Source: a virus. From it: a DNA stretch of 40,982 nucleotides. The stretch lies in the IMG/VR virus record IMGVR_UViG_3300020731_000487, positions 1 to 40,982 of that record; one strand, written 5' to 3'. Both the position numbers and the translations under genes were made by a program. Positions 9,001 through 37,490 of this stretch are shown here, one piece after another; the stretch's first letter is position 1, and every line of letters begins with the position of its first letter. Below the pieces are notes generated by a model that had not been told where the DNA came from, made no database searches, and saw only the letters and a list, made by a program, of their open reading frames with translations.

Positions 9001-12000
9001 CTGTGTTAAACGTATCTGAATAAGGTCTAATCCTGAACTTGCATTAGGAGTATATGTAACAATTACGCCGGTAGCTCCTGAAGTTGCACCGACTAATGCC
9101 TTAGCTGGAATAATATGATTTGATCCTGGTTTACCTTGATCAACCGCGTTGTTGCCGCCATTAGTAATATAGACATTCCAAATACCTGTACCATAGCTGG
9201 GAGCAGGTGCCGAACCTAGACCGTTGGTAATGATACTGATTAGGGTATTCATATTATTGGTTACATCAGTAACTGCCTGACTGGCAGCACTTAGTCCACC
9301 GTTAGTATACTGTGTAAACGCAGTTTGATAACGACTAGCAGTAGTCTGATTTAAACATTGTATTGCTAGAGTTTTTGCGTAGTTGATACCATCTAAAGTT
9401 TCTTTATACTGTCCTCCAATAGCTAACAATGCACTAGCATTTCTATAATAGCTCTTACCGGCCTGGATACTTTGATAGGTACCACCGACGATCACATCAA
9501 TGGCCATGGCTTCAATAATCAAACCAACATCTCGTAAACAAGTTGCTTGATTATAATTAAATCCACCGGCATAGGTAGTATTAAGATAAAGTATGGTTGT
9601 TTGTGCTATATTGCTTTCATTAGGAACAATAGTATTTCTAGCTGACTGAGCAGTTGACGAAAATCCTGTTAGTGTAGGATACACTATTGTAGGAGCTGTA
9701 CCACCACCTAGCACTGTAGATATAATTGTAAAATCTGCAGTAATAGCAGTTGACGCTGCGCTAGCACCTGTTAACCCAGCGTTGATATATTGTGCATTAG
9801 ATGAGCTTACAGTGCTGAGATAGTTTGGACTAATTGCTACAGTTGTTGATATGATCGAAGAAATGTTAGCTTGTATTCTAGTAATAATAGCTGCATTGGT
9901 TTGAGAATCTGTACCGTTAGTATATAGTAGTTGGCTTGCTAGAGTTGCACCACTAGTGCCCCCATAGACTATGTCATATATAATACCTTCAATAATATAC
10001 TGTAGTTGTCTACGATAGGCAACAGTATCAGTAATAGCATTATAATAAGATAGATATGTAGTCTTAACATAGCCTAATGCATCATCGATTAAGAATGGAA
10101 TATTGTTTTTAATCAGAGTTGCTGCATTTTGGTATCCTGTGCTAGCACTTGTAAGTGTATATGTAGGAGTTGTACGTGACACGATACCGTTGGTCAATAA
10201 TGACGAAGCAACTGTGAACAAATTAGATATAGTTGCTAGAGTACCGCTGTCGATAATTACTGGGAAATTGTTATTTTGATATGTAACAGCATCTGATGCA
10301 TATGTAGTTGAATTTCCTAGAATATAACTTCTAATGGCCAAGTTAGGACTAGATACTCCTGTAGTTGATGGAACTACTAGGGTATCAGATTCACCATTTA
10401 TGTAATCTTGAACAGTTTCAATATTGTTTGCAATGCTGGTGCCCATTGTTCCACCGTTCAACAATGTAGTATTTTGATATTGAATAATACTTTGTTGATA
10501 CTGTGTAATTAGAGATGTGTTAGTGATGATTGCCTGTGCTAGAGTATTCACATAGTCGTAGGCATCAAGTGTTGCTTGTCTTTCTGAAGCGGCAATGACT
10601 AATGTACCGTTGTAGTAAGTTCTTGCGGCATTGATAGTAGCACTATTGCCACCATACATTAGGTCATATACTAACGCCCAAACAATATATTGTACATCTC
10701 GTTTGCATTTTGCTTGGCTATAAGCTAGGCCTGGATAGTTAGCACTCAAGAATGAAACTACTTCTGCTTGTATAAATGAAATATTATTCAACAATAAATC
10801 TCTAGCTGAAGTTTGACCAGTGGTAGTAGTTCCTGTAATAGCAGGGAATACCGGTGTAGCAAGTTTGCCTGTTGTTAGCATTGCTTCTAATGCAGCAATA
10901 TTACTACTAATACTAGAATTATTGTTAGCAATCGAGGTTGTTGTAAATACTGCGGTACCAGATACTGGACCAGCAGTTGGTAAACTTAGAATAATTGTAT
11001 TATTCACAATACTGGAAACTGTGTTACCTGCGGCAATATTGGTTCCTGAAACATTTTGTCCTACTGCTATTCCTGAAACATTAACAACAGTGATAGCATT
11101 AGATCCAAGTACAACTGATCCTGATACTGCATCAGTATTGGCACTACTTAAATAAATTGTACTGCCAACAATACTGGTTACACTAGCACCGCTAGCAATT
11201 CCAGCACCAGAGACTAGCATACCAACTACAATACCTATTGGTGACGATACACTTATTGTACTGCTAGACACTGTTCCTGTAGCAGTAGTAGTAACACTAG
11301 CTGCGCTCATTGATGTAGTACCATTAATACCTAAGATTTCATTTCCTAGATTACCAATAATAGAAACGATTTCTGTGGTACTTAGTGATGTATTAGCTGT
11401 TGAAAATGCTAGAGCAGCTTGAATAGTCTGATAGTTGCTGTTAAATATTAAATCGTAGCACAGGCCATTTATTACACTAGTAATGTATGACGATAAATTT
11501 GCACTGACGTAGCTATAATTTAATATTTGACTGCTAACATTATTAATAGCGTCAACTGTCTGTGCTAGACTTGTTGTTCCTGTACCTGCTAAAATAGTTG
11601 TTGCTACTCTTGTGGTATTATAAGTTGAACCAACAACCAAGTCATAACATACAGCATCAATTAAATTGACCAAATTGGTCTTCATTGTTGTTTGATTATA
11701 ACTAAATTGATTTACATATTTGTTATTGATATAACTGACAACTTCATTTTGAATAAATGTTTTGTTTTGTTCTAACAGTGTACGTGCATCTGGATAGCCA
11801 GGGACTGCACTATTACCACCTGTTAATGCAACGTTGTTAATTGTAGAAAAATATTCTGTCGGACTACCACTGAGTGTGTAACTAATTCTTTGGCGATATG
11901 GACCGGGTTCGATCTGTGCAATACTCTGTAGACTATCAGCGGCCAGCATAGCAGCACCGATCGTTTTATATGAATAACTCCAGCTACGTCCTTGCTTTCC

Positions 12001-12843
12001 AGGAGGTGCTTTTTGTTGTAGGTCATCACCACTTGATGTTGACACAAATAAATTAACATTTGAAGCAAATGTTGCTTGATCAACATAATATTTTGTAGCG
12101 GCTGTTTTGCTTGTAGAATCTTGAGGTCCTGTTCCGGTGATAGGAGATGGATGATCATTTAGTACTAGGGCTCCGGTCATAGTGTCGCCTTCGCGCAATA
12201 CTACAGCACGACGTTGTACAGCTTCTGTTGCCAAATAATTTCCAGTTAATGTTGGATCATAGTCTGGGTCGGTTGTAGGTGGAATAGAAGGCTCAGCACG
12301 TACTCGTACAGGACCGGTTACTACAGATACAGAAGTACCGCCGCCTGTTGTGGTAGTTGTTAATGGCAAGTAATGTGCATCAGCATAACCCTTATTAATA
12401 ACTAGATCATTGATTGTAATATTAGTTCCGTAGAGAGTATTAAATGTATTAACTAAACTCTGTGACGGAGCTGCTATATTTCCAATAGTAAATCCATTAG
12501 CGTTTATTGGTGCAACTAGTGTTGGAGCAGAATCATTACGCAATCCTGCGGCAGCCGCACTAAAAGTAACCTGAGCATTATTTGTAGTATCAATTACAAT
12601 ACCAGACCCGGCAATTAAATTACGAGCGGTAAGTTTGCTGCCAGTAGTATTCGACATAATAACCTGGCTATTACCATATGCAGATGGTGCATCAGCTAAG
12701 TTAGTAAATCCAATTTTACCTCCAGCACCAAAGGCAGCATATAGTTCAGTAAAGTTAGTATTAACCTTACGAAACGATTCACGAATACTGTCGCCAGTAC
12801 CGTCATTACCTTGTATACCGATATCAATTGATAATTGTGACAT
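7..12843 (-). CDS. Giant tail-fibre / virion structural protein (4278 aa)
   Basis: Residues 1-40 carry the phage-fibre start GTGDSIRESFRKVNTNFTEL. From about 345 to 2050 a helical module recurs at least six times (near 350, 460, 680, 910, 1070, 1790-1900), with a 'YDLxxGxxYxT' type signature and paired cysteines. Beta-helix-like stretches lie near 1300-1400 and 2085-2165. Residues 2400-3400 are Thr/Ser/Gly-rich, low-complexity beta repeats. A conserved block lies near 3560-3640. Residues 4155-4278 form a compact C-terminal domain starting ADLAEYYEGDQEYEPGTV, a type found at the ends of phage fibres and sometimes autoproteolytic. The start is ATG with GGAG (12854-12857) lying in the end of the upstream Fe-S carrier gene, so the two are probably coupled. 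The stop overlaps a possible next ATG (TAATG, positions 5-9) whose gene runs off the window. The role is inferred to be host recognition or baseplate/tail decoration. Its size is far beyond common fibres. Confidence 0.85.
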   Translation of the reverse strand: MSQLSIDIGIQGNDGTGDSIRESFRKVNTNFTELYAAFGAGGKIGFTNLADAPSAYGNSQVIMSNTTGSKLTARNLIAGSGIVIDTTNNAQVTFSAAAAGLRNDSAPTLVAPINANGFTIGNIAAPSQSLVNTFNTLYGTNITINDLVINKGYADAHYLPLTTTTTGGGTSVSVVTGPVRVRAEPSIPPTTDPDYDPTLTGNYLATEAVQRRAVVLREGDTMTGALVLNDHPSPITGTGPQDSTSKTAATKYYVDQATFASNVNLFVSTSSGDDLQQKAPPGKQGRSWSYSYKTIGAAMLAADSLQSIAQIEPGPYRQRISYTLSGSPTEYFSTINNVALTGGNSAVPGYPDARTLLEQNKTFIQNEVVSYINNKYVNQFSYNQTTMKTNLVNLIDAVCYDLVVGSTYNTTRVATTILAGTGTTSLAQTVDAINNVSSQILNYSYVSANLSSYITSVINGLCYDLIFNSNYQTIQAALAFSTANTSLSTTEIVSIIGNLGNEILGINGTTSMSAASVTTTATGTVSSSTISVSSPIGIVVGMLVSGAGIASGASVTSIVGSTIYLSSANTDAVSGSVVLGSNAITVVNVSGIAVGQNVSGTNIAAGNTVSSIVNNTIILSLPTAGPVSGTAVFTTTSIANNNSSISSNIAALEAMLTTGKLATPVFPAITGTTTTGQTSARDLLLNNISFIQAEVVSFLSANYPGLAYSQAKCKRDVQYIVWALVYDLMYGGNSATINAARTYYNGTLVIAASERQATLDAYDYVNTLAQAIITNTSLITQYQQSIIQYQNTTLLNGGTMGTSIANNIETVQDYINGESDTLVVPSTTGVSSPNLAIRSYILGNSTTYASDAVTYQNNNFPVIIDSGTLATISNLFTVASSLLTNGIVSRTTPTYTLTSASTGYQNAATLIKNNIPFLIDDALGYVKTTYLSYYNAITDTVAYRRQLQYIIEGIIYDIVYGGTSGATLASQLLYTNGTDSQTNAAIITRIQANISSIISTTVAISPNYLSTVSSSNAQYINAGLTGASAASTAITADFTIISTVLGGGTAPTIVYPTLTGFSSTAQSARNTIVPNESNIAQTTILYLNTTYAGGFNYNQATCLRDVGLIIEAMAIDVIVGGTYQSIQAGKSYYRNASALLAIGGQYKETLDGINYAKTLAIQCLNQTTASRYQTAFTQYTNGGLSAASQAVTDVTNNMNTLISIITNGLGSAPAPSYGTGIWNVYITNGGNNAVDQGKPGSNHIIPAKALVGATSGATGVIVTYTPNASSGLDLIQIRLTQPILFTNSEQLDFGETVKAANITVFVESGIYYEDYPLRLPANVSIKGDEFRRTIVRPLDRISQSPWRKVFFYRDAVIDANLIGYLDQTINYASLLPFTGASAIISGTTGNITVTFPSSVFVPSSYIGKVITVGVGQAVISSVSNNIANCQTIYPFSAAGTFTSGNWGMYNTINYGRHYLTNPLDITSTPKNNKLIDVLLCNDQTRVSNLTFQGHGGFAMVLDPEGQIKTKSPYGQVCSSFSQSINAKRFAGGQYVDGFTGRLRGTINAISYNAITGFNTSSLVGGSGYTPTSGTATYTNVALTGGTGSGATGTITVTNGAVVNISVATIGAGTGYTIGDSISCANSSIGGTGSGFSIPVSTVSGNGIYVTIKGSTSATGTYVSGGGTGSNTLLVTGVAGTIQPGSLISGTGYGTGQTVVTVTTSDNVTYTVTTSGYGTTTPSGTLVFGVSSGLDIRPPQPPCAFYVSGFRYQVDDILSFDATTATAVLVLDTATPYNAAGAYNNATCSRDTGLVLDAVGYDVVLGSNYQSVKAGLSYLRQDAYTVLAKQITTTTAAFSYASTLAQAQTSYSSAQTTIANSFSLINTILQQGVASAAPTITYPAGPNSTAGQQNAVAIIQANRTFLQQEITAWLNANYVVKNIPNYSAVVYQQNVGYAVDAICYDLLYGGNSMTFDFTISYFAKSVSTETGFNTVTGQEAVIAASYGRLNTILQQIVLNTTVTKSLGNIFTQNTSLPAATSTEQTSINTLATILTGFNYTTGVTSATRTTPNTSGANTNLLAAQSAIQTARSTIQSSVITFINQGATLTINVEGGGNKSMLANDFAMINDLGYGILATNGGVTEQVSTFSYYCHTHYWANNGGQIRSVAGSNAHGDYGLRSSGYDVTELPNAVNLTYDMAQTARVYKQGTYANTGLGITVDSTKSLSFAIIGYEYTPFNVSEIEIDHTLAGGPITRYLLSTIAHTSVTINGQNVLQLTLATTGINSTSATGLLFSLYDGQLIQIRMLQNAKFYNISNVNPTRPSTALQYTNNLSDVYRLIAYNLTESTGEILPANVAVLQSDASFNYYKLTIDATSIAVLDPQDPTKTQGSKVGDNKIAVLTISDAPTIAQINRGIYVFTWNGRSHRAISYTPPVNIATGYYVSGGGTSPYTITLNNVSGTISAGMLVTGGNAANNAYLASQNITVVSTNLTTTGGLTTGTVVVSGLYNAAPTSGYTITFGVFVNGYLTIDPNPTFNIATYGASIGALTYNSKYVPTVGGTAYVTYDTNLDLVNAPIVDGYYLVANQPNAAYNGYQQVSAVTSTTLVTVGSTVGLSVGQLISAIVTLSNVSITGTSGQFACNTTSLITGTQIQVSGALTGNGSISGYTGITTVYYVIATNNSTTFTLSTTSNGSGVTTGTGTVTGLTFTVLNPPAVYVAPNATITSISSNGYQFTVSPACWFPSGTTVSAQNVATVQSLTISNAGSGYGTTPPTVTFSGGGASSQAIATVTLTNGSVTGFTIVSPGYGYTSQPTITVSAPTSGVTAVLVAVLTANPVVNATAISGISNIQVTMAYPSDPGLFQTGALVAPTGYTSKVPSTYKSNNGFTLTLPLPTQSVAPTVDSYYRVYSYTNIITATTTGTNYITTSSTANLSTGQLIEFNNIDIFTNATAAASGTNYITVNNTTGMAAGMPITFTYDQVNMTVSYVAASGQITVNSSAGLFLGMPIVFSGTAAGGLNPNQTYYIYDAPDSTHIRVTTVNGGAYQTFSNASANMSASAGGIFGGLGQGVVYYINSVVDGTHITVSQTASPLSAFGLSAASGFMKVSIGGGGFGGLTNSTTYYITSIPDSTHFTVSTTLGGTNLVLSTAYGTMLANVVSSYNPLYNGSWAVTASSATSISLFYPYDPGAFITPLNATLSSVSGVSGAGPFLVTFTIPTQAVAPTTGINYTVSGQVNTAFNTSVTATSSSTTSITLSYVTNPGTFVTATPINITSYGTVTGSGPYVVTYNITSQTYVPFTGTTYTVAGSSTAGYNGTYSVVGSTNSTIQVSYPSNPGSFVAGLVGTGQIAGTTLAVTAVTSGAIATNQVITGTNVTTTTVTGTYTTGKLISAVASNATYFTITTAAQPVPWIVGQQVTITGVTPTGYNNTWTISNNIAPTATQFTVTNASNFGTSGFVSNAGTATPSGATGGVGMYVVATTQTAASGAIATNLTITPTATTTSVIGGATVLIAPEVTNASSSSLGISKPFSVANIPTLRLGYPAGSGAQITVRISTCRATGHDFLDIGTGGYVTTNYPYQIYGNPALPRQQTQEVFEEGVGRVFYVTSDQNGIFRVGRFFTVDQGTGTVTFSASIALSNLDGLGFKRGVVVSEFSTDSTMTNNASDTVPVQSAVRGYIDARLGLTHGGSPVALTNLIGPGYLALSGALSMKGSLNMSGYLINNVSTPQSGLDAANKSYADGLTLSVNALYKLTDQLITYANIPNGNTHVFDQYVGNQLSIISITTSGGTATLTYAVQPSAPYAIGQTIYVQGVNPSGYNGTWVVTACTSIGVQFATAYSTAYVGGGTITTGRWRNIAFPNSTSANNDVAINWNSSTSALTSSINLGVIVNQQVSPTAAIAQSKLSLNSAGVLANATGITQANLGVAAFSSATFSSTNGWIDVQTSTSASTGVVLSKIQQISASTILGNLGSVAASPSQLTPGNVVTAGDGIKNANFSSSASVSTGVMIVNYNIASGTSGNTYSIIPAVSTATANSIVLRDSSGNSTVSTLNTATLQIGGYKAQDLTSTTFNYYTPGGYQFGTSTGTNGTNSTFAFLAGTVDISASGAILKATTITTGAAGTVGTVTGTYQVTASSTWDVTAGTLKSYTLTTGGDSLAGVIQGKWTLSGASTLQATYADLAEYYEGDQEYEPGTVLVFGGDKEVTSTDTMNDTRLAGVVTTNPAYVMNSEQTGIKVCLALAGRVPVKVVGRVKKGDMLTTSSTPGYAVKALNPTLGAIIGKAIEDKDYGEAGVITVAVGRM

Positions 12844-12848
12844 TTATA

Positions 12849-13172
12849 TTAAACTCCGAAACTTGAACCGCAGCCGCAAGTTGATACTGCGGTAGGATTT
12901 TTTATTGAAAATTGGCTGCCATATAGATCTTCTTTGTAATCTATTTCTGCACCTTGCACATACTGTGCGCTCATTGCGTCTACTAAAACATGAATCCCGT
13001 CTTTTTCTATATCAAAATCGTCTTCATTAACAACTTCATCTAGAGTAAATCCATAGGTAAATCCGCTACATCCGCCACCCTGCACAAACATACGTAACTT
13101 TAATTCGGGATTATTTTCTTCAGCAAGGATATCTTTAATCTTTTCTGCGGCGTGTTCAGTGATAATGATCAT
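12849..13172 (-). CDS. A-type Fe-S cluster carrier, IscA/ErpA (HesB) family
   Basis: This 107-residue protein has the normal family length. All three cluster-binding cysteines are present: Cys35 in QGGGCSGF, and Cys99 and Cys101 in STCGCGSSF. Proteins of this family accept an Fe-S cluster and pass it to apo-enzymes in the cytoplasm. The start is ATG with AGGA upstream and a late-type promoter at 13193-13200. It sits 5 bp upstream of the giant fibre gene, whose ribosome site lies inside its last codons, so it is a late gene co-transcribed with the fibre. It could load a cluster into a virion protein or support the many Fe-S enzymes of this phage. Both roles are inferred. Confidence 0.93.
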
Positions 13173-13192
13173 GGCGTTCCTGTGTTATATGA

Positions 13193-13200
13193 TATTTATC
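13193..13200 (-). promoter_or_regulatory. Late promoter for the Fe-S carrier and fibre genes
   Basis: The minus strand reads GATAAATA, one base from the T4 late element TATAAATA and fitting the NATAAATA form of T4-like phages. It lies about 20 bases before the start codon, leaving room for an AGGA ribosome site. Confidence 0.65.
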
Positions 13201-13221
13201 AAAGGCTTTTTATAACCTTAA

Positions 13222-13229
13222 TGTAAATA
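13222..13229 (+). promoter_or_regulatory. Late-type promoter TGTAAATA
   Basis: TGTAAATA is followed by CTATT, which matches the extended T4 late consensus TATAAATACTATT at all but one base, and then directly by ATG at 13235. With T4 spacing the first transcribed base would be the A of the start codon. Confidence 0.5.
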
Positions 13230-13234
13230 CTATT

Positions 13235-13522
13235 ATGATACTTGGCACTGAATTTAGAAAACACACTTATATGAGACGCAGTAAGCGAGGCAAAACTCAC
13301 GCTTACTATCGTAATAAGACTGTGATTATTTTTAGATGCGATTGCTGCCAGGGGGTTTTTAATCGTGATAAAGGTGATATGGATCCTAAGCGATTAACCA
13401 ACAATTTCTATCACGTTTGTGGAGATTGTGATGCTAAGAAATTTGCTCAGGAAAAAGGTGTTGAAGCTCGTAAGATCTGGGATATGCCAGTAAGTAGTCT
13501 TAAGACGCTAGACCAACTCTAG
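13235..13522 (+). CDS. Small zinc-ribbon-like phage protein (95 aa)
   Basis: I do not recognise a named family. Two cysteine pairs, Cys35-x2-Cys38 and Cys62-x2-Cys65, are spaced like a zinc ribbon. The N-terminus is strongly basic (RRSKRGKTHAYYRNK), suggesting nucleic-acid binding. There is no ribosome site before the ATG, and the late-type element at 13222 would give a leaderless message. Met13 (13271) is an alternative start. The gene is transcribed against its neighbours, and its last codons overlap the end of the convergent gene at 13519 by 4 bases. Confidence 0.7.
   Translation: MILGTEFRKHTYMRRSKRGKTHAYYRNKTVIIFRCDCCQGVFNRDKGDMDPKRLTNNFYHVCGDCDAKKFAQEKGVEARKIWDMPVSSLKTLDQL
13507..13522. 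repeat. 16-bp hairpin repeat, copy 1
   Basis: GCTAGACCAACTCTAG is an inverted repeat (CTAGA / TCTAG, loop CCAAC) at the junction of two convergent genes. An identical copy lies at 14349-14364. No T-run follows, so it is not a classic intrinsic terminator. Confidence 0.6.
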
Positions 13523-14331
13523 CTTTGCCAATCCTTGTCGCCTGGATGTACTTGACTGTATCCACGTTTCCATTCTTTTCTATATTGATCAGCTGGGAGC
13601 AATCCAGAAAAATCTAATTTCTTAGCAACTCTATCTTTGAGTTGCGGGTAAAGTTTTTGTATATATGATTTATCTTTACTGCGCTGGCCTATCATATCAA
13701 TAAATCCACCTGGTCGATTATAACCTACATACCACTCAGTGGGTTCGGTTTTCTTTGGAGGATTACCACTGGTATATCCATTATTGTGTATTTTTAATTT
13801 TGACGGATCCGTATAATCGTTCTGCGGTTGGGGGCCAGTATCAGCAGGCGGTTTAGCTAGGGGATTTTGCCCTTCCTTGCGCCACGGAGAAATTTTAACA
13901 CCCATTGTTTTAGCGTGATCAAAAAAACCTCTGGGGATTTTTAAGTCAGGATCGTATTGTATTTCAACTATAAATGGAGCCTGAATAGGTATAGGTTTAT
14001 ATACCTGTTCTTCAGTTTCGTATTTGTAATGCATCATAGCACCTACCTTAGGTACTACTTTGTATCCAGCACGACGAAGAGCATCTTTATCTATAACAAA
14101 TTGAGCCACACCATTCCCGTAGGGAAAATGCAAGTATTGATTACGAGTTAGACTTATGCGTGGAATAGATTCTTCACCATTTTCTTGATCCATCTCTTGA
14201 TCAAAGTCAAAGGGCTTTTGCGGCTTTAAAGCACCACTTTTTAATATCTGCATCATAGTAGGGCCGTCTGGCACTCCGTGATACAAGAATTGATCGTTCA
14301 CACCCTCGTTTAATAGTTCCCAGATTTTCAT
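13519..14331 (-). CDS. ADP-ribosyltransferase-like protein with a possible capsid-targeting leader (270 aa)
   Basis: Residues 16-36 (LYHGVPDG...ILKSGALKP), the SLTRN at 60-64, and EEQVY near 107-111 follow the order seen in the ADP-ribosyltransferase/KptA fold (Y-H-G, S-x-T, E). This resemblance is from motif order only and is tentative. The first ten residues, MKIWELLNE|G, look like the short leader that T4 internal proteins and the Alt ADP-ribosyltransferase use for head packaging, cut after Glu by the head protease. Residues 165-200 are Pro/Asn-rich and probably a linker. A late-type AATAAATA lies just upstream (14340-14347), consistent with a virion-loaded protein. It could instead be an unrelated phage protein. 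Confidence 0.6.
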   Translation of the reverse strand: MKIWELLNEGVNDQFLYHGVPDGPTMMQILKSGALKPQKPFDFDQEMDQENGEESIPRISLTRNQYLHFPYGNGVAQFVIDKDALRRAGYKVVPKVGAMMHYKYETEEQVYKPIPIQAPFIVEIQYDPDLKIPRGFFDHAKTMGVKISPWRKEGQNPLAKPPADTGPQPQNDYTDPSKLKIHNNGYTSGNPPKKTEPTEWYVGYNRPGGFIDMIGQRSKDKSYIQKLYPQLKDRVAKKLDFSGLLPADQYRKEWKRGYSQVHPGDKDWQS

Positions 14332-14338
14332 AGCAATA

Positions 14339-14902
14339 TTATTTATTTGCTAGACCAACTCTAGAGCTGATCACATTCCAGTTGATAATCTTCCATTGAT
14401 TAGCAAGATAACCTTTCTTGTCAGCTTGGTAATCTAATGCCCAGGCATGTTCCCAAGCATCGATTAACAGCACAATATCCATTTTAATTTCGTGATTTTT
14501 GATAGTCTTAATTTTTCCATCTCGGGCTAGATAGCACCATCCGCTGCCTTGGATAGACATAAACTCTTTTTGAAAAGCATCGGTAAACGCATCAAAACTC
14601 TTGTAGTGTTTGTTAATAAATTCACCAGCAGTGCCGTCGGGCTCGTTTGATCTTGTGGGTTTTTGGAACTGTGTAAAGTAGATATCATGTAAGAAAGCAC
14701 CTGCTTCATTAAAGTCTGGATCGCCTTCACCGTCGTTAAACCGTGTAACATACCCCTTATATAGTTTACCATAGTGATAGTCTATAGTATCTTGGCTCAT
14801 ACTAGGCTCGAGATCATCCTTGGCATAGGGCAACTTAGTTTGAACTAGGGTTTTAGGACTCTTACCTTCGTTCAGTGTAATATGCTTAATAAAGTTGTAC
14901 AT
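14339..14902 (-). CDS. Fe/Mn superoxide dismutase with N-terminal extension (187 aa)
   Basis: The family N-terminal block (LPYAKDDLEPSMS) starts at residue 24. All four metal ligands are visible: His43 (DYHYGK), His72 (AFLHDIYF), and Asp148 and His152 (LIDAWEHAW). GSGWCYL (119-125) is the family's central motif. The enzyme dismutates superoxide to oxygen and peroxide. The usual second-sphere His pair after the first ligand (K-H-H) is K-L-Y here, and the usual active-site Gln is not evident, so activity may be altered. The extra N-terminus ends in L-N-E|G (residues 10-13), a candidate head-protease site, and cleavage would leave a normal-length enzyme. The late element GATAAATA sits five bases before the ATG with no ribosome site. 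Confidence 0.88.
   Translation of the reverse strand: MYNFIKHITLNEGKSPKTLVQTKLPYAKDDLEPSMSQDTIDYHYGKLYKGYVTRFNDGEGDPDFNEAGAFLHDIYFTQFQKPTRSNEPDGTAGEFINKHYKSFDAFTDAFQKEFMSIQGSGWCYLARDGKIKTIKNHEIKMDIVLLIDAWEHAWALDYQADKKGYLANQWKIINWNVISSRVGLANK
14340..14347 (-). promoter_or_regulatory. Possible late promoter AATAAATA for the ADP-ribosyltransferase-like gene
   Basis: The minus strand reads AATAAATA overlapping the stop of the superoxide dismutase gene. Eight bases separate it from the ATG at 14331, so the leader would be only about three bases long. Confidence 0.45.
14349..14364. repeat. 16-bp hairpin repeat, copy 2
   Basis: This is identical to 13507-13522, here in the last codons of the superoxide dismutase gene and in a different reading context. 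Confidence 0.6.
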
Positions 14903-14907
14903 AATGA

Positions 14908-14915
14908 TATTTATC
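14908..14915 (-). promoter_or_regulatory. Late promoter for superoxide dismutase
   Basis: GATAAATA on the minus strand is followed by TCATT and then the ATG at 14902. T4 spacing puts the first transcribed base on the start codon. Confidence 0.6.
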
Positions 14916-14916
14916 G

Positions 14917-14924
14917 AATAAATA
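14917..14924 (+). promoter_or_regulatory. Late promoter for the small basic protein
   Basis: AATAAATA is followed by CTGTA and then AGGAG (932-936 region) before the ATG at 14944. It is arranged back to back with the minus-strand late promoter at 14908-14915, within 41 bases between the two start codons. Confidence 0.6.
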
Positions 14925-14943
14925 CTGTACTAGGAGAAATACC

Positions 14944-15150
14944 ATGATTAAATTTATTAAAAGTTTGTTTGCACCAGCAGTTAAAATTGAAACACCTGTA
15001 GTTGAAGCGCCTTATAAAGTTGAAACCTCAAATGCCAAGGCTGCATCTGAAGCGGTTGTTAAAAGCATTGCTGCCAAGAAAAAGCCAGCGGCTAAGAAAG
15101 CACCAGCGGCTAAAAAGCCACGTGCTCCACGTAAGCCTAAAGCAGAGTAA
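14944..15150 (+). CDS. Histone-H1-like Lys/Ala/Pro-rich small protein (68 aa)
   Basis: Residues 44-68 are almost entirely Lys, Ala, Pro and Arg, in repeats of the AAKKxPAAKK type seen in histone H1-like tails. Residues 1-12 (MIKFIKSLFAPA) are a short hydrophobic/basic helix. It has a clear AGGAG ribosome site and a late promoter. DNA or RNA binding is expected from composition alone. A head-internal or DNA-packing role fits late expression next to two candidate packaged proteins but is not shown. Its last 14 bases overlap the convergent UV-endonuclease gene. Confidence 0.75.
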   Translation: MIKFIKSLFAPAVKIETPVVEAPYKVETSNAKAASEAVVKSIAAKKKPAAKKAPAAKKPRAPRKPKAE

Positions 15151-16165
15151 GAGCTTTAGCTTGCTCGTAAAGAGCAAAACTAGCTAGGTTTTTACCTTTA
15201 GATTCGCACATAATATCGTGCGTATTTAAAAAGCTCAATGCCCATTCGTTAGTTGCTGTATTCCAGTAAAAGTCTGAATGCGCTCTGAGCTTTTGCTTTT
15301 TGTAACCTTCTTTTAATAGCTCTGCATGGTGAGGCATTATACTAGTGTCATGGCCCACGAGTACATCTTCACGAGATACTGAGTAATGACAAGTAGGGCG
15401 CACACCGCGCCAACTGTCCACGACACGCATAACACGGCTATCCTGGTTGCTGATATATTCACCTTCACGTATCCAATGATGGTGTATGTCAAGCACAATA
15501 GGAATGATATCGCTAATAGCAAGGCAGTCATCTAACCCCCATGAATTTTCTTCGTTTTCGATTGTAATACAATTACGTGCTTCGGGCGTTAGTTTTCCGT
15601 AGGCCCGTCGTATGCCGTCTGGGCCTTGTCGACCGGAGATGTGAACATTGATTTTAAAGTCTTGAAACGTTTTTCCATAACCCATCCATCGGGCCATGTC
15701 TGTGTGATATTCGAATTCAGCGATTGAACGTTCAACAATCCCTGGGTTATCGCTTGCCAAGACAGTAAACTGCCCAGGATGCATAGATAACCGAACGCCG
15801 CTATTGCGAGCAATGTCACCCACTCTCTTAAAGTGGGTTTCGCAGTATGATACAACGTCAGGTTGACGCCAATAATCAGCAAAGTCAGCGTGAGTATAAA
15901 CAGGCAGAATGTCGCTACTAAGCCGAACCATCCTAAGATTAGGCTCAAGCTGACTAACACGTTCTACTAGCAATCGAGTTGCCTCGATATTGCCCACCAT
16001 TAAGTCCCATAGTCTCTGCTCCGCAACGTCTCTTGGTTGATTATTTAACCAACGAACAGTAGTTGTGCCAGTGTTATACTTCTTGGCATCATCTTTAGGT
16101 TTAATACCCTCAGTTTGATCAGGGCGATCAATCCATTTACAAGCAAATCCGATTTTCTTAGTCAT
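15137..16165 (-). CDS. uvsE: UV-damage endonuclease (UvsE/UVDE family)
   Basis: This TIM-barrel endonuclease nicks DNA 5' to UV photoproducts. The metal-binding barrel motifs appear in the right order: RLSMHPGQF (125-133), NVHISG (173-178), TIENEE (201-206) and LDIHHHW (225-231), with more conserved His in the C-terminal part. At 342 residues it is a little longer than the common bacterial form. A near-consensus early promoter (16171-16199) ends five bases before the ATG and no ribosome site exists, so the message looks leaderless. No other in-frame Met precedes the conserved domain. It probably repairs sunlight damage in phage DNA. Confidence 0.92.
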   Translation of the reverse strand: MTKKIGFACKWIDRPDQTEGIKPKDDAKKYNTGTTTVRWLNNQPRDVAEQRLWDLMVGNIEATRLLVERVSQLEPNLRMVRLSSDILPVYTHADFADYWRQPDVVSYCETHFKRVGDIARNSGVRLSMHPGQFTVLASDNPGIVERSIAEFEYHTDMARWMGYGKTFQDFKINVHISGRQGPDGIRRAYGKLTPEARNCITIENEENSWGLDDCLAISDIIPIVLDIHHHWIREGEYISNQDSRVMRVVDSWRGVRPTCHYSVSREDVLVGHDTSIMPHHAELLKEGYKKQKLRAHSDFYWNTATNEWALSFLNTHDIMCESKGKNLASFALYEQAKALTLL

Positions 16166-16170
16166 GCTTT

Positions 16171-16199
16171 ATTATAGCACAAAATATAGTAAAAGTCAA
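16171..16199 (-). promoter_or_regulatory. Early sigma70 promoter of the UV-endonuclease gene
   Basis: The minus strand reads TTGACT, 17 bases, TATAAT, with a TG one base before the -10 (extended -10). The predicted start falls on the ATG at 16165. Confidence 0.8.
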
Positions 16200-16202
16200 C
16201 AC

Positions 16203-16766
16203 TTATTGATCGTATGTGTACCAACCGGTTATAATATATTTGAGTCCGGTGTAGATTGGATTACCTCTATGCGGATAAGTCCAGCCGCTGGGCCAAATTA
16301 CTACCTTGCCAGCTTCTGGTTTAATCTTAACACCCTGATACAGATATTCGGTTTCGCCGCCTTCTTCTATATCGTTCAAATATAGTGTATAAGCTACTAC
16401 TCTAGAAACGCTAAAGTTCCCTTCGCTTTCTACATGCCAGGTATGATATCCCTGATGTGGATTAGTGCGCTGTATGCACATGCCTTTAGGACTGTGTCTG
16501 CTGACTTCTTTAAGCATGGCATACTTTTCAATATATTGATCATAACATGCATTTATACCCGCATAAAATGCCTGCACAACGTCATGATGATAATAATGCA
16601 TTTGACCGTGTGGTGCCCAATCGTATGATACTCGATCATCGCCGTTTTTAGATAAAGAATTCCTAGAATAAGTCTGTCTTTCGGAATGCATTCTTTCAAA
16701 AATTTCTATAATATTATTACAAAAATCTTTACTAAATGCATTTGAATATTCTTCAATCATGTTCAT
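16203..16766 (-). CDS. 2OG-Fe(II) oxygenase, prolyl-4-hydroxylase-like (187 aa)
   Basis: The iron and 2-oxoglutarate site can be read as His111-x-Glu113 (TWHVES), His166 (YPHRG) and Lys176 (GLKYI) for the cosubstrate. The C-terminal half is the jelly-roll core, with LYLNDIEEGGETEY being typical of the P4H group. A Glu in place of the usual Asp in the HxD pair is the only oddity. It lies 8 bases after queD and is probably co-transcribed from the promoter at 17294. The substrate is unknown. Small oxygenases of this type are common in T4-like aquatic phages. Confidence 0.88.
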   Translation of the reverse strand: MNMIEEYSNAFSKDFCNNIIEIFERMHSERQTYSRNSLSKNGDDRVSYDWAPHGQMHYYHHDVVQAFYAGINACYDQYIEKYAMLKEVSRHSPKGMCIQRTNPHQGYHTWHVESEGNFSVSRVVAYTLYLNDIEEGGETEYLYQGVKIKPEAGKVVIWPSGWTYPHRGNPIYTGLKYIITGWYTYDQ

Positions 16767-16774
16767 ATCTAGGA

Positions 16775-17224
16775 TTAGCCTTCGTATATAGCACTATTAG
16801 CACCATGCTCTGCACACTCTGCTCGTACACAATAACAACGGCCATTGCTTTTTTCTCTAATCAATTGATCGGCAAAGTGGAAAGCATGTTCGGCAAACTT
16901 CTCAGCACCCACACCGTCAAAGATTCTAATTTCGGCTAGGCCTAGTTCTTCTAGTTCTTGGAATTTGGCTAAGTGTGGATCAGCAAGATCCAAAGCCAAT
17001 TTGTGATCAAACTTATCTTCAAGCCATGCTTTGAGTTGTTTGAGTCCACCAAAGTCTACTGCCCAATTTTTATCATCTAGTGTGTCGCAACCAAATGTAA
17101 ATGTAAATGCTAGACTGTAGCCATGTAGCAAATGACAATGACTATGATCCGCATTGGGCTGTCTAAATACGGCACTTAATCCAATGTTGTGTCCGTAATG
17201 TTTTGTACTGTAATATTTTGCCAT
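16775..17224 (-). CDS. queD: 6-carboxytetrahydropterin synthase-like protein (QueD family)
   Basis: QueD makes 6-carboxytetrahydropterin on the route to preQ0/queuosine or 7-deazaguanine bases. The family features visible are Cys30-x3-His34-Gly (CHLLHGY), WAVDFGGLK (54-62 region), the Asp-His pair in KFDHKL, and a C-terminal VRAECAEHGANSAIYE with the substrate Glu. The classical zinc ligands differ: the first AxH position is Phe and the HGH motif is HGY. Zinc would therefore have to be bound by the local His cluster DHSHCH. The ATG has AAAGGA upstream, a long leader and an early promoter. No queC, queE or folE is in this window. Confidence 0.85.
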   Translation of the reverse strand: MAKYYSTKHYGHNIGLSAVFRQPNADHSHCHLLHGYSLAFTFTFGCDTLDDKNWAVDFGGLKQLKAWLEDKFDHKLALDLADPHLAKFQELEELGLAEIRIFDGVGAEKFAEHAFHFADQLIREKSNGRCYCVRAECAEHGANSAIYEG

Positions 17225-17288
17225 CTTGTTTTCCTTTAAGATGACACGCAGAGTTTATAATGCGGGATGAGCGTCTAAGTCCGCAATA
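17225..17288 (-). promoter_or_regulatory. Long, possibly structured leader of queD
   Basis: About 63 bases lie between the predicted transcription start and the ATG. The transcript can pair GCGG with CCGC around a loop of about 15 bases, followed by an A/U-rich tail. A competing pairing of GACGC with a downstream GCG is also possible. The place and gene suggest a preQ1-type control element, but the consensus bases are not convincingly there. Confidence 0.3.
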
Positions 17289-17293
17289 TAGTA

Positions 17294-17321
17294 ATTATAC
17301 AGTCTTATACAGATAAGTCAA
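17294..17321 (-). promoter_or_regulatory. Early sigma70 promoter of queD and the oxygenase
   Basis: The minus strand reads TTGACT, 16 bases, TATAAT. Confidence 0.7.
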
Positions 17322-17323
17322 TA

Positions 17324-18649
17324 TTATTGATTGCCAATAGCACCGAATGGTAACCACTCTCCTGGATTGCCTTCGGCTACACATACCCAACCAATATAAT
17401 TATGAACGATTGGATTATTGTTCCAGCAAATATCGCCTTTGCTATATGTACCTTCAGTTGGTGCCGCATCACCGTTGATAAATTTCTTACCACCAAAACT
17501 AACATTACCTGCAACAGCCAATGCAAGATCTGGATCAGGGTTATTAACACCCACAGTTAATGATCCAAATACTTTAACAGTACGAGATGTATTAGATTTG
17601 CTACCAAGTGCAATTTGCTGACTATCACCGTAGAACACTTCATCTTGAGCAACAGCCAACGACATGTAGTCGCTATTATTGATCTGATTGCCGTTAATAG
17701 CAACTCTTATCAACCCGTCAACTAAAGTAAATGATTTTGCTGTAATATTTGAATGCGTAGCATCAAGACCACCAAACATAGTAGTTAACCCTTGTACCGC
17801 TAGAGTTTGTAGAGTACCAACCGAAGTAAGGTTACTAGATGATATACCGACACCTAATGCACCGCCAGATAAAACAAGTTGCCCATCGATGTAGTATGCT
17901 TGATTTTGAGCTAGATCGATACTTTCTGTACTAGATAGTCTATCCGGACTAGCCATCATAATGAAATGGCGTTGTGGCCCAGTTCCAGTCCAAACAAGTC
18001 CTTGACCATATATAGATGTATCACGGCCTGCCTTGAATTCTAATGGGCTATAACGATCAATCCTTGTATCAGTTACTACTGAATTAGCAGTTAATGTACC
18101 ATTAATAGTTACATTTGCATTGCTACTTGCGGCATTACCGATAATGATCTCACCGGTACCTTTGATAGTAATTCTTGGAGTATCGTCGGTGATAATATTA
18201 AAATCGCTAGTAGTATATGTTCCAATACTAGCAGAATTAACACCTTGGCTACCGATGATAATATTTACATTGTTATCGAGTATATCCAAGGCTGCTAGTG
18301 GAGTAGCAGTGTTGATACCAACTCGCTGTATAGCTGAGCTTACAGTTATAACATTGCCTAATACAGCGTCGCCTAGCACGTCTAGATAGTGTAGAGACCC
18401 AATTTCTTGTATATTACTCTTAGTAACAGTTGGTCCTAGTTCATTTAAACTAAGGACAGGAATGTTACCGATTTGGTATGAACGAGCTTCATCGAGATCA
18501 AAGTCACCGTTAGTCCAAACTCTTTCGCCTATTCTATAAGCAAGTTTAACTATTCCAGCACTAGAGATCCAGGTTAAACCTGCTCCGTCGATTTCAGATT
18601 CTGGACCACCTGTCCAAGTTGCAGTAATATTATTGTATGATTGGGCCAT
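17324..18649 (-). CDS. Tail-fibre-like virion protein (441 aa)
   Basis: The N-terminal part (1-105) contains ARSYQIGNIPVLSLNELGPTV-type sequence shared by fibre proteins of T4-like phages. Residues 105-260 are 'TPLAALDI...GTGEIIIGN...VTINGTLTA' repeats of a trimeric beta fibre. The end (from about 400) is CWNNNPIVHNYIGWVC...GEWLPFGAI, typical of a C-terminal tip. It has a late promoter at 18671 and a short leader with AAGAGAG. It is likely a structural partner of the giant fibre, as both are late and share repeat style. The exact tail position is unknown. Confidence 0.82.
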   Translation of the reverse strand: MAQSYNNITATWTGGPESEIDGAGLTWISSAGIVKLAYRIGERVWTNGDFDLDEARSYQIGNIPVLSLNELGPTVTKSNIQEIGSLHYLDVLGDAVLGNVITVSSAIQRVGINTATPLAALDILDNNVNIIIGSQGVNSASIGTYTTSDFNIITDDTPRITIKGTGEIIIGNAASSNANVTINGTLTANSVVTDTRIDRYSPLEFKAGRDTSIYGQGLVWTGTGPQRHFIMMASPDRLSSTESIDLAQNQAYYIDGQLVLSGGALGVGISSSNLTSVGTLQTLAVQGLTTMFGGLDATHSNITAKSFTLVDGLIRVAINGNQINNSDYMSLAVAQDEVFYGDSQQIALGSKSNTSRTVKVFGSLTVGVNNPDPDLALAVAGNVSFGGKKFINGDAAPTEGTYSKGDICWNNNPIVHNYIGWVCVAEGNPGEWLPFGAIGNQ

Positions 18650-18670
18650 GGATAAACACTCTCTTTCGAG

Positions 18671-18678
18671 TATTTATC
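18671..18678 (-). promoter_or_regulatory. Late promoter of the 441-aa fibre gene
   Basis: GATAAATACTC on the minus strand, with a predicted 16-base leader carrying a purine-rich ribosome site. Confidence 0.6.
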
Positions 18679-18694
18679 TATAACCTACAGCATT

Positions 18695-19894
18695 CTATAC
18701 TGCTTTTAACAGGATAGTTTCTTCGTTAATACGCCCGTTCATCTTAGTATCTACAGCATTGATATCTTCTAAAAACTTGCGTAATTGCACTTTGCCAGCG
18801 TCTTTAAACGCTTTTAACTGCTCTGCAGGCTTACGCAATGTCTTTTGTACACTGGTATTTTCGTTAAAACCTACGATACTTGTGCCCTTAACTGTAAGTT
18901 CTAGGTATTCTGATGCTACATATTTGCCTAGTTTACGAGTCTTAGTATTAAAAGTCCAAAGCTCTTTAGCACCGATAATGTCAATTGGGTTGATACTAAC
19001 CAACTTCATCGGTTCGTCCGACTTTTTGTATTTCAATTTAGCAACAATCTTTTCTTTGGGCTGTGCTTTCTTAGCACGTGGAGCACGATTAACTTTAGCT
19101 TCTTGAGCTAGCATGTCGCACGCTGCCATAATCTCTTGATAGAAGGCGATTAAATTCTTAACTTGTTTACGGCTAAGATGGCTATAGCCTTCACGTAGCT
19201 GTTCATCAGCTTCTCCGCTAGCTAACTCCTCAAGTTCATCTAAATCACGCTTATACAGCGTTTTAATAATTCTAGCATGAGCAGCCTTGACTTCTTTGCC
19301 CTTGAGCAAGTTGAGTACTTTAAACGCTTTTGGATCAAATGATTCTGGATCCTTTTGAAACCCTTCAATAGCATTTTCTAATTCTTCAGTCATTTTAAGA
19401 CTGGCTTCACGAACACGCTCTTGGATAGATGGGGTATAGACAGCTGGCTTAGCATCTTCAATAGCGTTGGCATCTTCTTCACTAATGTCATCTTTACCTG
19501 CAGAAATTACCTTAACAATTTCAGCACGGAGCCAGGCAGCAGTATCTCGACCGTTATTAAAGTCAGCACGCTGAGGAGTCATGCCTCTCAATAGACAGCA
19601 GGCAACAGCACCCATAGTAGTGCCAACACGGCTATCTTTGACTTTCTTAAATGCGGCAATGTCAGCTTTGGTGCAGCCAACTGATTCCATCCATTTGGCT
19701 ACAGATGGTTTGTAACTTTTGATATCGGAGTCTAAACGATAGTAATCCATAGCTGTCTTAAAAAAGCGATGGAACTTATCACCATCCCAAGTTTCACAGC
19801 CTTCCCAAACTGGGCTAGAGTCTTTAGATGCTTTAGCGCGATGAGCATGTACTTGTTTTTTGGTTACACGAGTTTTGCTTGCTACTTTTGCCAT
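18695..19894 (-). CDS. Conserved-type phage protein of unknown function (399 aa)
   Basis: I do not recognise the family. The N-terminus (1-25) and a linker near 268-290 (PRAKKAQPKEKIVAKLKYKK) are strongly basic. Residues 30-110 are a helical region rich in Trp and Cys. Residues 140-265 look like a long charged helical or coiled segment. The C-terminal 110 residues look mixed alpha/beta (ELWTFNTKTRKLGKYV). Nucleic-acid binding is plausible from the basic tracts. It has a clean AGGAG site and a perfect consensus early promoter (19926-19954), so it should be strongly expressed early. Confidence 0.85.
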   Translation of the reverse strand: MAKVASKTRVTKKQVHAHRAKASKDSSPVWEGCETWDGDKFHRFFKTAMDYYRLDSDIKSYKPSVAKWMESVGCTKADIAAFKKVKDSRVGTTMGAVACCLLRGMTPQRADFNNGRDTAAWLRAEIVKVISAGKDDISEEDANAIEDAKPAVYTPSIQERVREASLKMTEELENAIEGFQKDPESFDPKAFKVLNLLKGKEVKAAHARIIKTLYKRDLDELEELASGEADEQLREGYSHLSRKQVKNLIAFYQEIMAACDMLAQEAKVNRAPRAKKAQPKEKIVAKLKYKKSDEPMKLVSINPIDIIGAKELWTFNTKTRKLGKYVASEYLELTVKGTSIVGFNENTSVQKTLRKPAEQLKAFKDAGKVQLRKFLEDINAVDTKMNGRINEETILLKAV

Positions 19895-19925
19895 TTACCA
19901 CTCCTATCTATTAAACAATATGTAT

Positions 19926-19954
19926 ATTATAACACCATTTGAGCTAGCTGTCAA
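19926..19954 (-). promoter_or_regulatory. Perfect early sigma70 promoter
   Basis: TTGACA, 17 bases, TATAAT on the minus strand, with TG one base before the -10. The -35 overlaps the end of the upstream radical SAM gene. The predicted leader is about 25 bases with AGGAG. Confidence 0.88.
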
Positions 19955-21215
19955 CCTCACCCGAAATATCATTTATTCGCCAATTTCTCGATTTATCATC
20001 CATTTTTTCATGGGTGTATATGCGATCAACACGACTAAATGTTCCGCAGATATTGGCACAGTAGGCCATTTTTCCTTCGGCACAGCTGGGCTTAGTCCAG
20101 GAGTCAGTAAACACTCGATCCAAATGATGACCTTCCATTATTTCTTCTAGAGTATGTAAGTTTAAATCAAAATGATCCCAACCATACTTTTCTATCTCAT
20201 AGTGTAATTGTAGACTTTGACCATCTGAGTGTACACCATTTAAGTGTGTGCCCATATAGCAACATGGAATTACTCGACCTTTTTGATCGATAAACACTTC
20301 TTTACCACCATCCCGTGTTTCGGCTTTGCATTTGATCTGTGCAGTATCTAAAATTGAGTTGTCTTCGCGTGATAAAGTACTGTAGGCGTTGGCAATACGT
20401 TCCGGATAATTATTATGAGTTAGTTTATTTTCTTTTAATCGTTTATATTCGTCAACATTGAATTCCCAGAACTGAGCTTGTATTGGGCCAACAGGATTTT
20501 CTAAATTCCTGTTTTTAGGATCTTCCGGAGGATCAATCCAATAGTCAAATTTTCCTTCTCGGGTTATCGCTGACATCCGAACTAGTTGCACTCCATTATC
20601 TGTACCTAGAGCTTTCTTTGGAGTAAAAGAATAAAATCCAAGTTCTTTTGATAATGCTTTTGCTTCGTCAATCTGATGCTCATTATGTTTGAATATTAGA
20701 TAATCCCACTCTGCTCTGCCGCCTGCATTAATAAATGCTTTGACATTGGCCATTAACTTATCCCATTCTACGTTACGTCTGTACAAATGATTAGTATCTG
20801 CTAATCCGTCGATACTAAAGGTTATTTGCCACGACCAATGATCACGCAGTTTGCCTGCAAATAATTTGCCAATCTTCTCCCAAAACTCTGGTTTACGCAT
20901 ACCGCCATTGGTGTTCATACGTACTGTTGTTTCTGGACTTACTTCAGCTATATATTCACAAATTTCATATAAGTCTTTAGCCATGCCCGGGTCGCCGTGT
21001 ACCCCACAAAATAATATTACTTCACATTTTCTTATAATTGTAGGAGGAAAGAATTTTTTAAATTGATCAATAGTAATCTGATCTATTTCTAAGTCGGGCC
21101 GGATTAATGGACTATTAACATGGAAACGTGTACACATTGGACACGCGGCATTACACGCATTTGTGAGCTCAATGTGTAATTGATTTAGTTCAGAGAAATT
21201 AAAAAAATTATTCAT
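19944..21215 (-). CDS. Radical SAM protein with C-terminal Cys-rich domain (423 aa)
   Basis: The cluster motif CNAACPMC (Cys21, 25, 28) marks a radical SAM enzyme. In place of the usual GGE there is FCGVHGDP, the variant also found in the two plus-strand proteins at 39047 and 40140. The C-terminal third has KCKAE, IPCCYMG and a Cys-rich CAEGKMAYCANICG tail, consistent with a SPASM-type auxiliary Fe-S cluster. I chose ATG 21215, which overlaps the previous stop as ATGAATAA, over a TTG six bases earlier. It is the last gene of the early operon. The substrate is unknown. Confidence 0.9.
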   Translation of the reverse strand: MNNFFNFSELNQLHIELTNACNAACPMCTRFHVNSPLIRPDLEIDQITIDQFKKFFPPTIIRKCEVILFCGVHGDPGMAKDLYEICEYIAEVSPETTVRMNTNGGMRKPEFWEKIGKLFAGKLRDHWSWQITFSIDGLADTNHLYRRNVEWDKLMANVKAFINAGGRAEWDYLIFKHNEHQIDEAKALSKELGFYSFTPKKALGTDNGVQLVRMSAITREGKFDYWIDPPEDPKNRNLENPVGPIQAQFWEFNVDEYKRLKENKLTHNNYPERIANAYSTLSREDNSILDTAQIKCKAETRDGGKEVFIDQKGRVIPCCYMGTHLNGVHSDGQSLQLHYEIEKYGWDHFDLNLHTLEEIMEGHHLDRVFTDSWTKPSCAEGKMAYCANICGTFSRVDRIYTHEKMDDKSRNWRINDISGEVDS

Positions 21216-36215: not shown

Positions 36216-36434
36216 TTATAACCTATAAGTTACTCTGCCCTTGCTCAGATCATATGTGCTAACTTCTAATTTGACTGAGTCACCTTCAATGATTCTAATT
36301 TTATGTTGTTTAAGTTTGCCGCCCATATAGCAAAGTAATAATTCGGGCATATTTTCTACTTTAACTCTAAACATATTACCCGGCAGTACTTCTTCTACTA
36401 CACCTGTTAATTCTAATAAATCGTCTTTACTCAT
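36216..36434 (-). CDS. infA: Translation initiation factor IF-1 homologue
   Basis: Taken from ATG 36434 the protein is 72 residues, the standard IF-1 length. The OB-fold signature is clear: LTGVVEEVLPGNMFRVKVEN, GGKLKQHKIRIIEGDSVKLE, YDLSKGRVTYRL. IF-1 binds the ribosomal A site during initiation. A TTG eight codons earlier is possible but lacks support, whereas this ATG overlaps the upstream stop as ATGA. A phage copy may tune the host ribosome toward leaderless or phage messages (inference). Confidence 0.92.
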   Translation of the reverse strand: MSKDDLLELTGVVEEVLPGNMFRVKVENMPELLLCYMGGKLKQHKIRIIEGDSVKLEVSTYDLSKGRVTYRL

Positions 36435-36592
36435 TCGTTTACTTTTGACAAGGACCAACTACCGTCACCGTTATCAGTCCATTCTAAATCGTCGCCTTCC
36501 TGCCACCCCTGTAGTTCGAGCAAGCCGTCTGGCAATGGGAGTACAAGTTCCCCATTTTCATCTTCTTCTATAAACGTAGTCCATTCTTTCAT
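36431..36592 (-). CDS. Small AbrB/MazE-like protein (53 aa)
   Basis: The sequence MKEWTTFIEEDENGELVLPL continues to LPDGLLELQGWQEGDDLEW and a short beta end. This is the swapped-hairpin AbrB pattern (ELVLPLP, then GW-x-EGD-x-LEW) seen in antitoxins and small phage proteins. It could bind DNA as a dimer, but basic residues are few. Its stop overlaps the IF-1 start (ATGA). A late-type element ends five bases before its ATG and no ribosome site is seen. Confidence 0.72.
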   Translation of the reverse strand: MKEWTTFIEEDENGELVLPLPDGLLELQGWQEGDDLEWTDNGDGSWSLSKVNE

Positions 36593-37461: not shown

Positions 37462-37490
37462 ATTATACTATCAAATGTAAATACTGTCAA
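37462..37490 (-). promoter_or_regulatory. Perfect early sigma70 promoter of the tRNA-like gene
   Basis: TTGACA, 17 bases, TATAAT on the minus strand. Exactly six bases separate the -10 from the first base (G) of the acceptor stem, so transcription should begin at the mature 5' end. Confidence 0.85.
37476..37483 (+). promoter_or_regulatory. Late-type promoter TGTAAATA of the second radical SAM block
   Basis: TGTAAATACTGTCA runs straight into the ATG at 37490, with no ribosome site. It overlaps the -35/spacer of the divergent tRNA promoter, so the two may exclude each other. Confidence 0.45.

Follow-up and report, generated by a model that had tools for sequence, protein, structure and literature searches.

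The gene under study lies in a viral DNA stretch of 40,982 nucleotides (positions 1 to 40,982 of IMG/VR record IMGVR_UViG_3300020731_000487), which we refer to as the window. The initial annotation had named it a UV endonuclease, an identity supported by its match to the Pfam family UvdE. The domain covers residues 43 to 267, equivalent to profile positions 28 to 253 of 275, and is common to the UvdE/UvsE UV-damage endonucleases (PF03851); the unusual part of the gene is its expression signal and not the enzyme. Its best match in a named phage is found in NCTB (45% identity), and among host genome contigs no UvdE relative was confirmed. The relevant features are as follows.

15137..16165, minus strand: uvdE-like UV-damage endonuclease gene, 342 aa (PF03851, E=7.5e-38)
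16165-16163, minus strand: start codon ATG; the predicted RNA +1 is the A at 16165, the base before it being C
16170-16166, minus strand: discriminator AAAGC, five bases, no Shine-Dalgarno sequence (direct reading and Shine-Dalgarno energy)
16179-16171, minus strand: extended -10 element TGC-TATAAT, TGC at 16179-16177 and hexamer at 16176-16171 (direct reading and promoter scan)
16199-16194, minus strand: -35 element TTGACT, starting 3 nt past the stop of the upstream gene (direct reading and promoter scan)
16203..16766, minus strand: 2OG-Fe(II) oxygenase gene (PF13640), upstream and codirectional
16775..17224, minus strand: 6-pyruvoyl-tetrahydropterin-synthase-like gene (PF01242), farther upstream, leadered, with AAGGA ahead of its ATG
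17294..17321, minus strand: promoter TTGACT-16-TATAAT farther upstream (scan), separated from its gene by 69 nt; possible source of read-through RNA
19926..19954, minus strand: leadered promoter for comparison, TTGACA-17-TATAAT, followed after 31 nt by an ATG (19894) which has TAGGAG ahead of it

At its 3' end, uvdE overlaps by 14 nt with a small convergent Lys/Ala/Pro-rich ORF (14944-15150, plus strand) which by eye resembles a histone-H1 tail. A uvdE 3' terminator at 15134-15118 is not claimed, as five such sites were found versus 5.6 expected. An Fe/Mn superoxide dismutase and a protein of an iron-sulphur-biosynthesis family are encoded near the UV-repair gene (14339-14902 and 12849-13172), hinting at a stress gene block. 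The 41-kb window also encodes an unusual number of radical-SAM-like proteins, at least six (20000-25848 and 37490-40147).

Direct reading and an independent promoter scan of the minus strand reproduce to the base the arrangement first reported for this start, i.e. TTGACT, 17 nt, TATAAT with an extended -10, five bases and the ATG at 16165. The promoter matches the host-type sigma-70 consensus at 11 of 12 positions, and its 17-nt spacer ends in TGC, which places a TG ahead of the -10. The ATG at 16165 had been considered the only reasonable start, and this assignment holds since an in-frame TAA lies immediately 5' of it while the second in-frame Met is residue 56, within the conserved domain. 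As the upstream gene on the same strand ends at 16203, the promoter occupies the whole gap of 37 nt between that stop and the uvdE ATG. The calculated Shine-Dalgarno energy ahead of the ATG is 0.00, hence a Shine-Dalgarno sequence is absent. The other strong promoters of the window are located 29 to 69 nt ahead of ATGs, several of them with Shine-Dalgarno-like sites; such a site (AAGG) also lies ahead of the gene starting at 30169.

Chance alone may place a good promoter beside a start codon where a genome is compact and AT-rich. The combination of TATAAT, a -35 element matching at five or more of six positions and an ATG 5 to 7 nt downstream occurs once on the minus strand of the window, compared to 0.075 occurrences expected from first-order Markov versions, a difference which is modest by itself since the window had been read for oddities. 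In a generic scan of positions 12000 to 20000, promoter-like sites were overall no more frequent than expected (20 versus 23.5).

Inspection of the best 80 of 583 confirmed IMG/VR relatives of uvdE showed several distinct promoters ending 5 to 6 nt before the uvdE start, with differing upstream genes. A spacing scan of IMG/VR for TATAAT, four to eight free bases and a uvdE-type start, the -35 element being left out of the query, yielded 68 matches, 67 of which encode UvdE. The spacing was 5 nt in 19 of them, 6 nt in 47 and 7 nt in two, while spacings of 4 or 8 nt did not occur. A -35 element matching at five or more of six positions accompanies 64 of the 67 assessable matches, compared to 123 of 712 when every TATAAT of those loci is counted, and is still found in 20 of 22 after similar promoters were collapsed.

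A promoter-blind scan for uvdE returned at least 80 loci, of which 77 were assessable and three too short. We distinguish leaderless uvdE (class A), a leaderless mini-ORF running into uvdE (class B) and a leaderless in-frame extension of uvdE (class C). Among the matches listed, 44 of the 77 assessable loci are leaderless (36 class A, seven class B, one class C), corresponding to 25 of 49 clusters, and the arrangement defining class A occurs at merely 8 of 465 other gene starts in these loci. No such layout is present in the remaining 33 of the 77 listed loci, hence the leaderless start is not essential. These counts refer to the 80 loci listed, while class sorting, the stem test and the tree described below also took in unlisted ones. 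For class sorting, 235 N-terminal matches were merged to distinct upstream sequences, seven being too short, which gave 30 nonredundant loci; one of these (L182, “other”) was excluded from later counts. In the 23 nonredundant class A loci the upstream stop lies at a median distance of 30 nt from the uvdE ATG (range -4 to 41), leaving no room for a promoter plus a leader, and the -35 element is often situated within the last codons of the upstream gene.

In neither of the two cultured relatives inspected was a leaderless uvdE found: in NCTB uvdE abuts the upstream gene and in Dickeya JA13 it is preceded by GAGGTAG. Considered as a source of 5'-end data, the named phages gave uvdE and dexA matches which were all less than 60% identical. 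As a separate observation, loci L117 and L131 share a near-identical promoter and first codons (MTKRIGF), which in one of the two precede a non-UvdE protein, cytidylyltransferase-like by eye, as if a start cassette had moved or recombined.

The same spacing is encountered in a second gene family, dexA, so named from annotated relatives. The scan for dexA gave at least 120 matches (L299-L418), dexA-type exonuclease genes on environmental phage contigs. Among the matches listed, the spacing is 6 nt in 81 and 5 nt in 36, thus 5 to 6 nt in 117 of 120, with one case each of 4, 7 and 8 nt. Collapsing similar promoters and removing matches with less than 24 nt of upstream sequence left 38 of the 120 listed; 35 of these are in frame, all at 5 to 6 nt, whereas the three out of frame were counted as chance, and 31 of the 38 possess a -35 element matching at five or more positions. 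That dexA obeys the spacing rule of uvdE points to a recurring class of leaderless genes. Further members are indicated by large records read piece by piece: G003 (354 kb) contains 13 promoters 5 to 7 nt ahead of a gene ATG compared to one in the reversed-sequence control, and G006 contains three compared to none. In eight large records together, the pattern TTGACN-N15-17-TATAAT-N4-8-ATG matches exactly 42 times and the reversed pattern three times. In the window, a second leaderless-like start is located at 22425 (minus strand), where only 4 nt separate TTTACA-17-TATAAT from the start codon of a radical-SAM-like gene; this promoter overlaps the end of the upstream gene, and its spacing of 4 is absent from the uvdE set.

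A distance of 5 to 7 nt puts the A of the ATG where transcription usually starts relative to the -10 element, and bacterial RNA polymerase prefers a pyrimidine before +1. At position -1 a pyrimidine is found in 27 of 29 uvdE loci (Fisher p 6e-6), as expected if the RNA starts on the A, and in 33 of 35 dexA loci (p 2e-7), compared to 310 of 585 background ATGs (53%); the p values are optimistic since the loci share kinship. A Shine-Dalgarno sequence is present in one of 23 class A uvdE genes, in 9% of the 35 dexA genes and in 8% of the 12 leaderless-position genes of G003; for genes with a promoter 20 to 60 nt upstream the values are 63% of 38 (G003) and 64% of 36 (G006). The leaderless start proposed in the initial annotation is thus strongly supported by spacing, absence of a Shine-Dalgarno sequence, the pyrimidine at -1 and recurrence in relatives and in dexA, all of which predict rather than map the 5' end. 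Its argument that the quality of the consensus makes chance unlikely stands in part: taken by itself, the window makes the site no more than moderately unlikely, and it is the conservation of the layout in relatives that rules chance out. Spacing, the missing Shine-Dalgarno sequence, the -1 base, the enrichment of -35 elements and the recurrence in two gene families all agree, and these comparative data contradict a coincidental promoter, which we regard as extremely improbable.

It is very probable that uvdE RNA originates from the sigma-70-type promoter with +1 on the A of the ATG, giving a leaderless mRNA of a design which recurs in this phage group; judged by the sequence rule, the gene of the window is a well-supported leaderless gene. 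Host sigma-70-type RNA polymerase would transcribe it, as the spacing and the initiator signature suggest. The early expression named in the initial annotation may apply as well, the one feature in its favour being the host-type sigma-70 consensus. Ribosomes generally bind leaderless mRNAs directly at the 5'-terminal AUG, as 70S particles in the textbook model. The uvdE mRNA, devoid of leader and Shine-Dalgarno sequence, would be bound by 70S ribosomes in this manner. Leaderless translation is reported to be insensitive to kasugamycin (PMC5230787). As the whole expression signal is contained within about 37 bp between two genes, the repair gene would possess its own minimal start, independent of its neighbours.

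Alternatively, uvdE may mainly be expressed from a longer RNA which starts at the promoter at 17321-17294 and carries uvdE in third place, with translation by re-initiation behind the preceding gene and the local promoter being weak or incidental. The three genes 16775-17224, 16203-16766 and uvdE are indeed codirectional with short gaps, and a scan of the minus strand between 17321-17294 and 16165 found no terminator-like site, so that read-through is possible and a longer RNA may coexist; in addition, the local promoter is missing in the 33 of 77 relatives mentioned above, among the matches listed. However, such an RNA would present 37 nt without a Shine-Dalgarno sequence ahead of the ATG, the local promoter with its 11 matching positions sits at exactly the spacing seen in relatives, and loci with other genes upstream retain the -35 element, the spacing and the -1 base. 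We consider this alternative unlikely. The initial annotation had named a longer transcript from an upstream promoter, carrying a ribosome site for uvdE, as the observation that would speak against a leaderless gene; an upstream promoter and possible read-through were found, but they bring no ribosome-binding site.

To follow the leaderless start through evolution, a tree was built from 145 UvdE proteins, cut down from 167 complete ones and including promoter-selected loci; as this partial selection biases proportions, only the intermingling of states was used. The leaderless state changes 32 times on this tree, at least eight changes being forced by strong branches. The UvdE of the window groups with class C and promoter-less relatives, on branches of weak resolution. 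The layout has been retained, or has arisen anew time and again, in many related uncultured phages, and the pattern fits a minimal start cassette which would have been gained and lost over time. It suggests that the benefit of the cassette may consist in compactness and independence from neighbours.

Across the start of the window's uvdE a possible hairpin can be drawn:

16162..16182, minus strand: possible stem UUGUGCU/AGCAUGA, weak (-4.7 kcal/mol), spanning -10 and AUG in read-through RNA only

Such a hairpin might hide the AUG in read-through RNA, the internal promoter producing the translatable RNA, a proposal which would add to the leaderless reading. The window admits a stem of 7 bp that includes wobbles, strong stems occur in a few relatives (-21.7 kcal/mol in L103, and class B as described below), and a precedent exists in genes e, soc and 49 of T4 (available part of PMC3014915). 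The stem of the window is weak, however, and in class A (n=23) the left and right arms pair with their own partners hardly better, if at all, than with swapped ones (p between 0.046 and 0.72 across eight settings). A conserved AUG-hiding stem of the T4 type was found in stem-bearing class B only, and not in class A including the window. Hence the hairpin is rejected as a general mechanism for class A and retained for class B; for the window we consider it rather doubtful.

The class B element, a form which the window does not have, consists of TATAAT in the loop of a covarying hairpin, a T-rich run and a leaderless mini-ORF of 4 to 10 codons, followed by uvdE. Carriers include L031, L064, L157, L161, L166, L185, L201, L215 and L281. 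Of 44 matches in a scan for the hairpin form, 41 are directly followed by uvdE; in a 42nd (L265) a 61-aa ORF lies between the element and uvdE with overlapping stops and starts, and the remaining two (L277 and L278) look unrelated. Separately, L078 and L080 possess leaderless small ORFs (76 aa and 92 aa) between promoter and uvdE in an overlapping stop/start chain.

In 26 distinct class B elements, 12 of them from loci first fetched by stem-blind scans, the stem flanks the TATAAT and covers the ATG of the mini-ORF, and the whole element folds with about -13 to -21 kcal/mol. This set was built by asking for an ATG with [CT][CG] directly behind it and a narrowly defined start of uvdE, thereby missing L002 and its near-copies, which have a leaderless mini-ORF and belong to class B without a strong stem (-1.5 kcal/mol). 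Because the CATA/TATG core and some of the right arm were fixed by the search pattern, which thereby also selects a portion of the T-run, only varying pairs count as evidence. The arms are locus-specific, own partners pairing at -16.2 compared to -13.1 for swapped ones (none of 20,000 permutations as low). In an alignment of 24 of the 26 elements, 96% of cells pair, whereas slid partners reach at most 51%, and 23 cells change on both sides compared to 7.0 in shuffles; the number of pairs with changes on both sides (5 compared to 3.8, 72 of 500 shuffles as high) is unremarkable. The nine bases past the stem contain six to eight T in all 26 elements, compared to one to three in class A, and a terminator scan of two elements flagged L281 but not L166. 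The mini-ORF stop overlaps the uvdE start in 24 of the 26, which is weak evidence for coupling as ATGA and ATGACTAA supply stops automatically. A DNA operator is disfavoured: both arms covary, and the excess of GU/UG over AC/CA on the sense strand (24 versus 4) points to RNA made from upstream.

Class B RNA arriving from upstream would, we infer, fold into a U-tailed hairpin which terminates transcription or hides the AUG. RNA begun in the loop would lack the left arm, could not fold and would be read from its first AUG, whereupon the leaderless mini-ORF may pass ribosomes to uvdE via the overlapping stop and start codons. The promoter is likewise nested in a hairpin formed only by longer RNAs in genes e, soc and 49 of T4, as far as the available sections of PMC3014915 describe them. 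T4 gene e, however, has late promoters and a Shine-Dalgarno-led start according to the same sections (PMC3014915), while class B relies on promoters of the sigma-70 type and includes a mini-ORF with a leaderless start and, behind the stem, a T-rich run.

The initial annotation had further suggested that an IF-1 encoded in the same window may be relevant:

36216..36458, minus strand: phage-encoded IF-1-like protein (PF01176, E=2.6e-18)

In vitro, IF1 and IF2 stimulate leaderless translation, according to the portion of a review available (PMC9031893). The gene is indeed present, but its relevance to the leaderless start amounts to a weak association. Of 54 records, 30 contain an IF-1 match, namely 21 of 31 with leaderless uvdE, seven of 20 without and two of three unclassified (the Fisher p of 0.042 takes neither kinship nor record length into account). 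These records were chosen mainly by length and class and are fragments, interrelated and in some cases near-duplicates. We regard the association as a weak lead and not as support.

In the lambda cI gene, the type example among phages, the promoter lies right at the AUG and there is no Shine-Dalgarno sequence. However, cI is a single repressor gene, whereas uvdE is a repair gene whose layout recurs in relatives and in dexA. The available part of PMC9031893 names lambda cI among leaderless phage mRNAs. In Deinococcus-Thermus, -10-adjacent leaderless genes likewise have a -10 motif about 6 to 7 bp before the ORF, and in D. radiodurans a TANNNT motif accompanies nearly a third of genes (PMC12340547, accessible text). 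In the phages studied here, by contrast, the layout concerns a few percent of genes or less and combines a strong -35 element with TATAAT, and Shine-Dalgarno sequences are often used otherwise. The authors of the AR9 study state in the available text that phage transcripts are often leaderless, yet report AR9 leaders of 26 to 491 nt (PMC5312081). By titles and abstract beginnings in the open-access literature, most subscription papers lying outside it, no description of a conserved leaderless uvdE or dexA was found. Leaderless -10-adjacent genes and promoters in start-hiding hairpins are known, and the leaderless uvdE and dexA genes of environmental phages would be a new variant.

In this phage group the design would recur in uvdE, in dexA and in a smaller share of the remaining genes, the majority being without it and many of Shine-Dalgarno type. 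Selection may have favoured it for being compact and portable, or for a translation mode of its own. That the group maintains dedicated leaderless genes (uvdE, dexA and others) beside Shine-Dalgarno-led ones, with class B acting as a one-way device, is a tentative extension which we consider somewhat less likely than not. Class B would represent a compact natural design which could insulate a gene against the one upstream of it. While leaderless mRNAs of phages are usually discussed via single examples such as lambda cI, the rule of TATAAT, 5 to 7 nt and a pyrimidine before the ATG offers a cheap marker of a recurring class in environmental phages, by which gene starts can be corrected. Since leaderless and leadered versions of one gene occur naturally in close relatives, the purpose of a leaderless start becomes directly testable.
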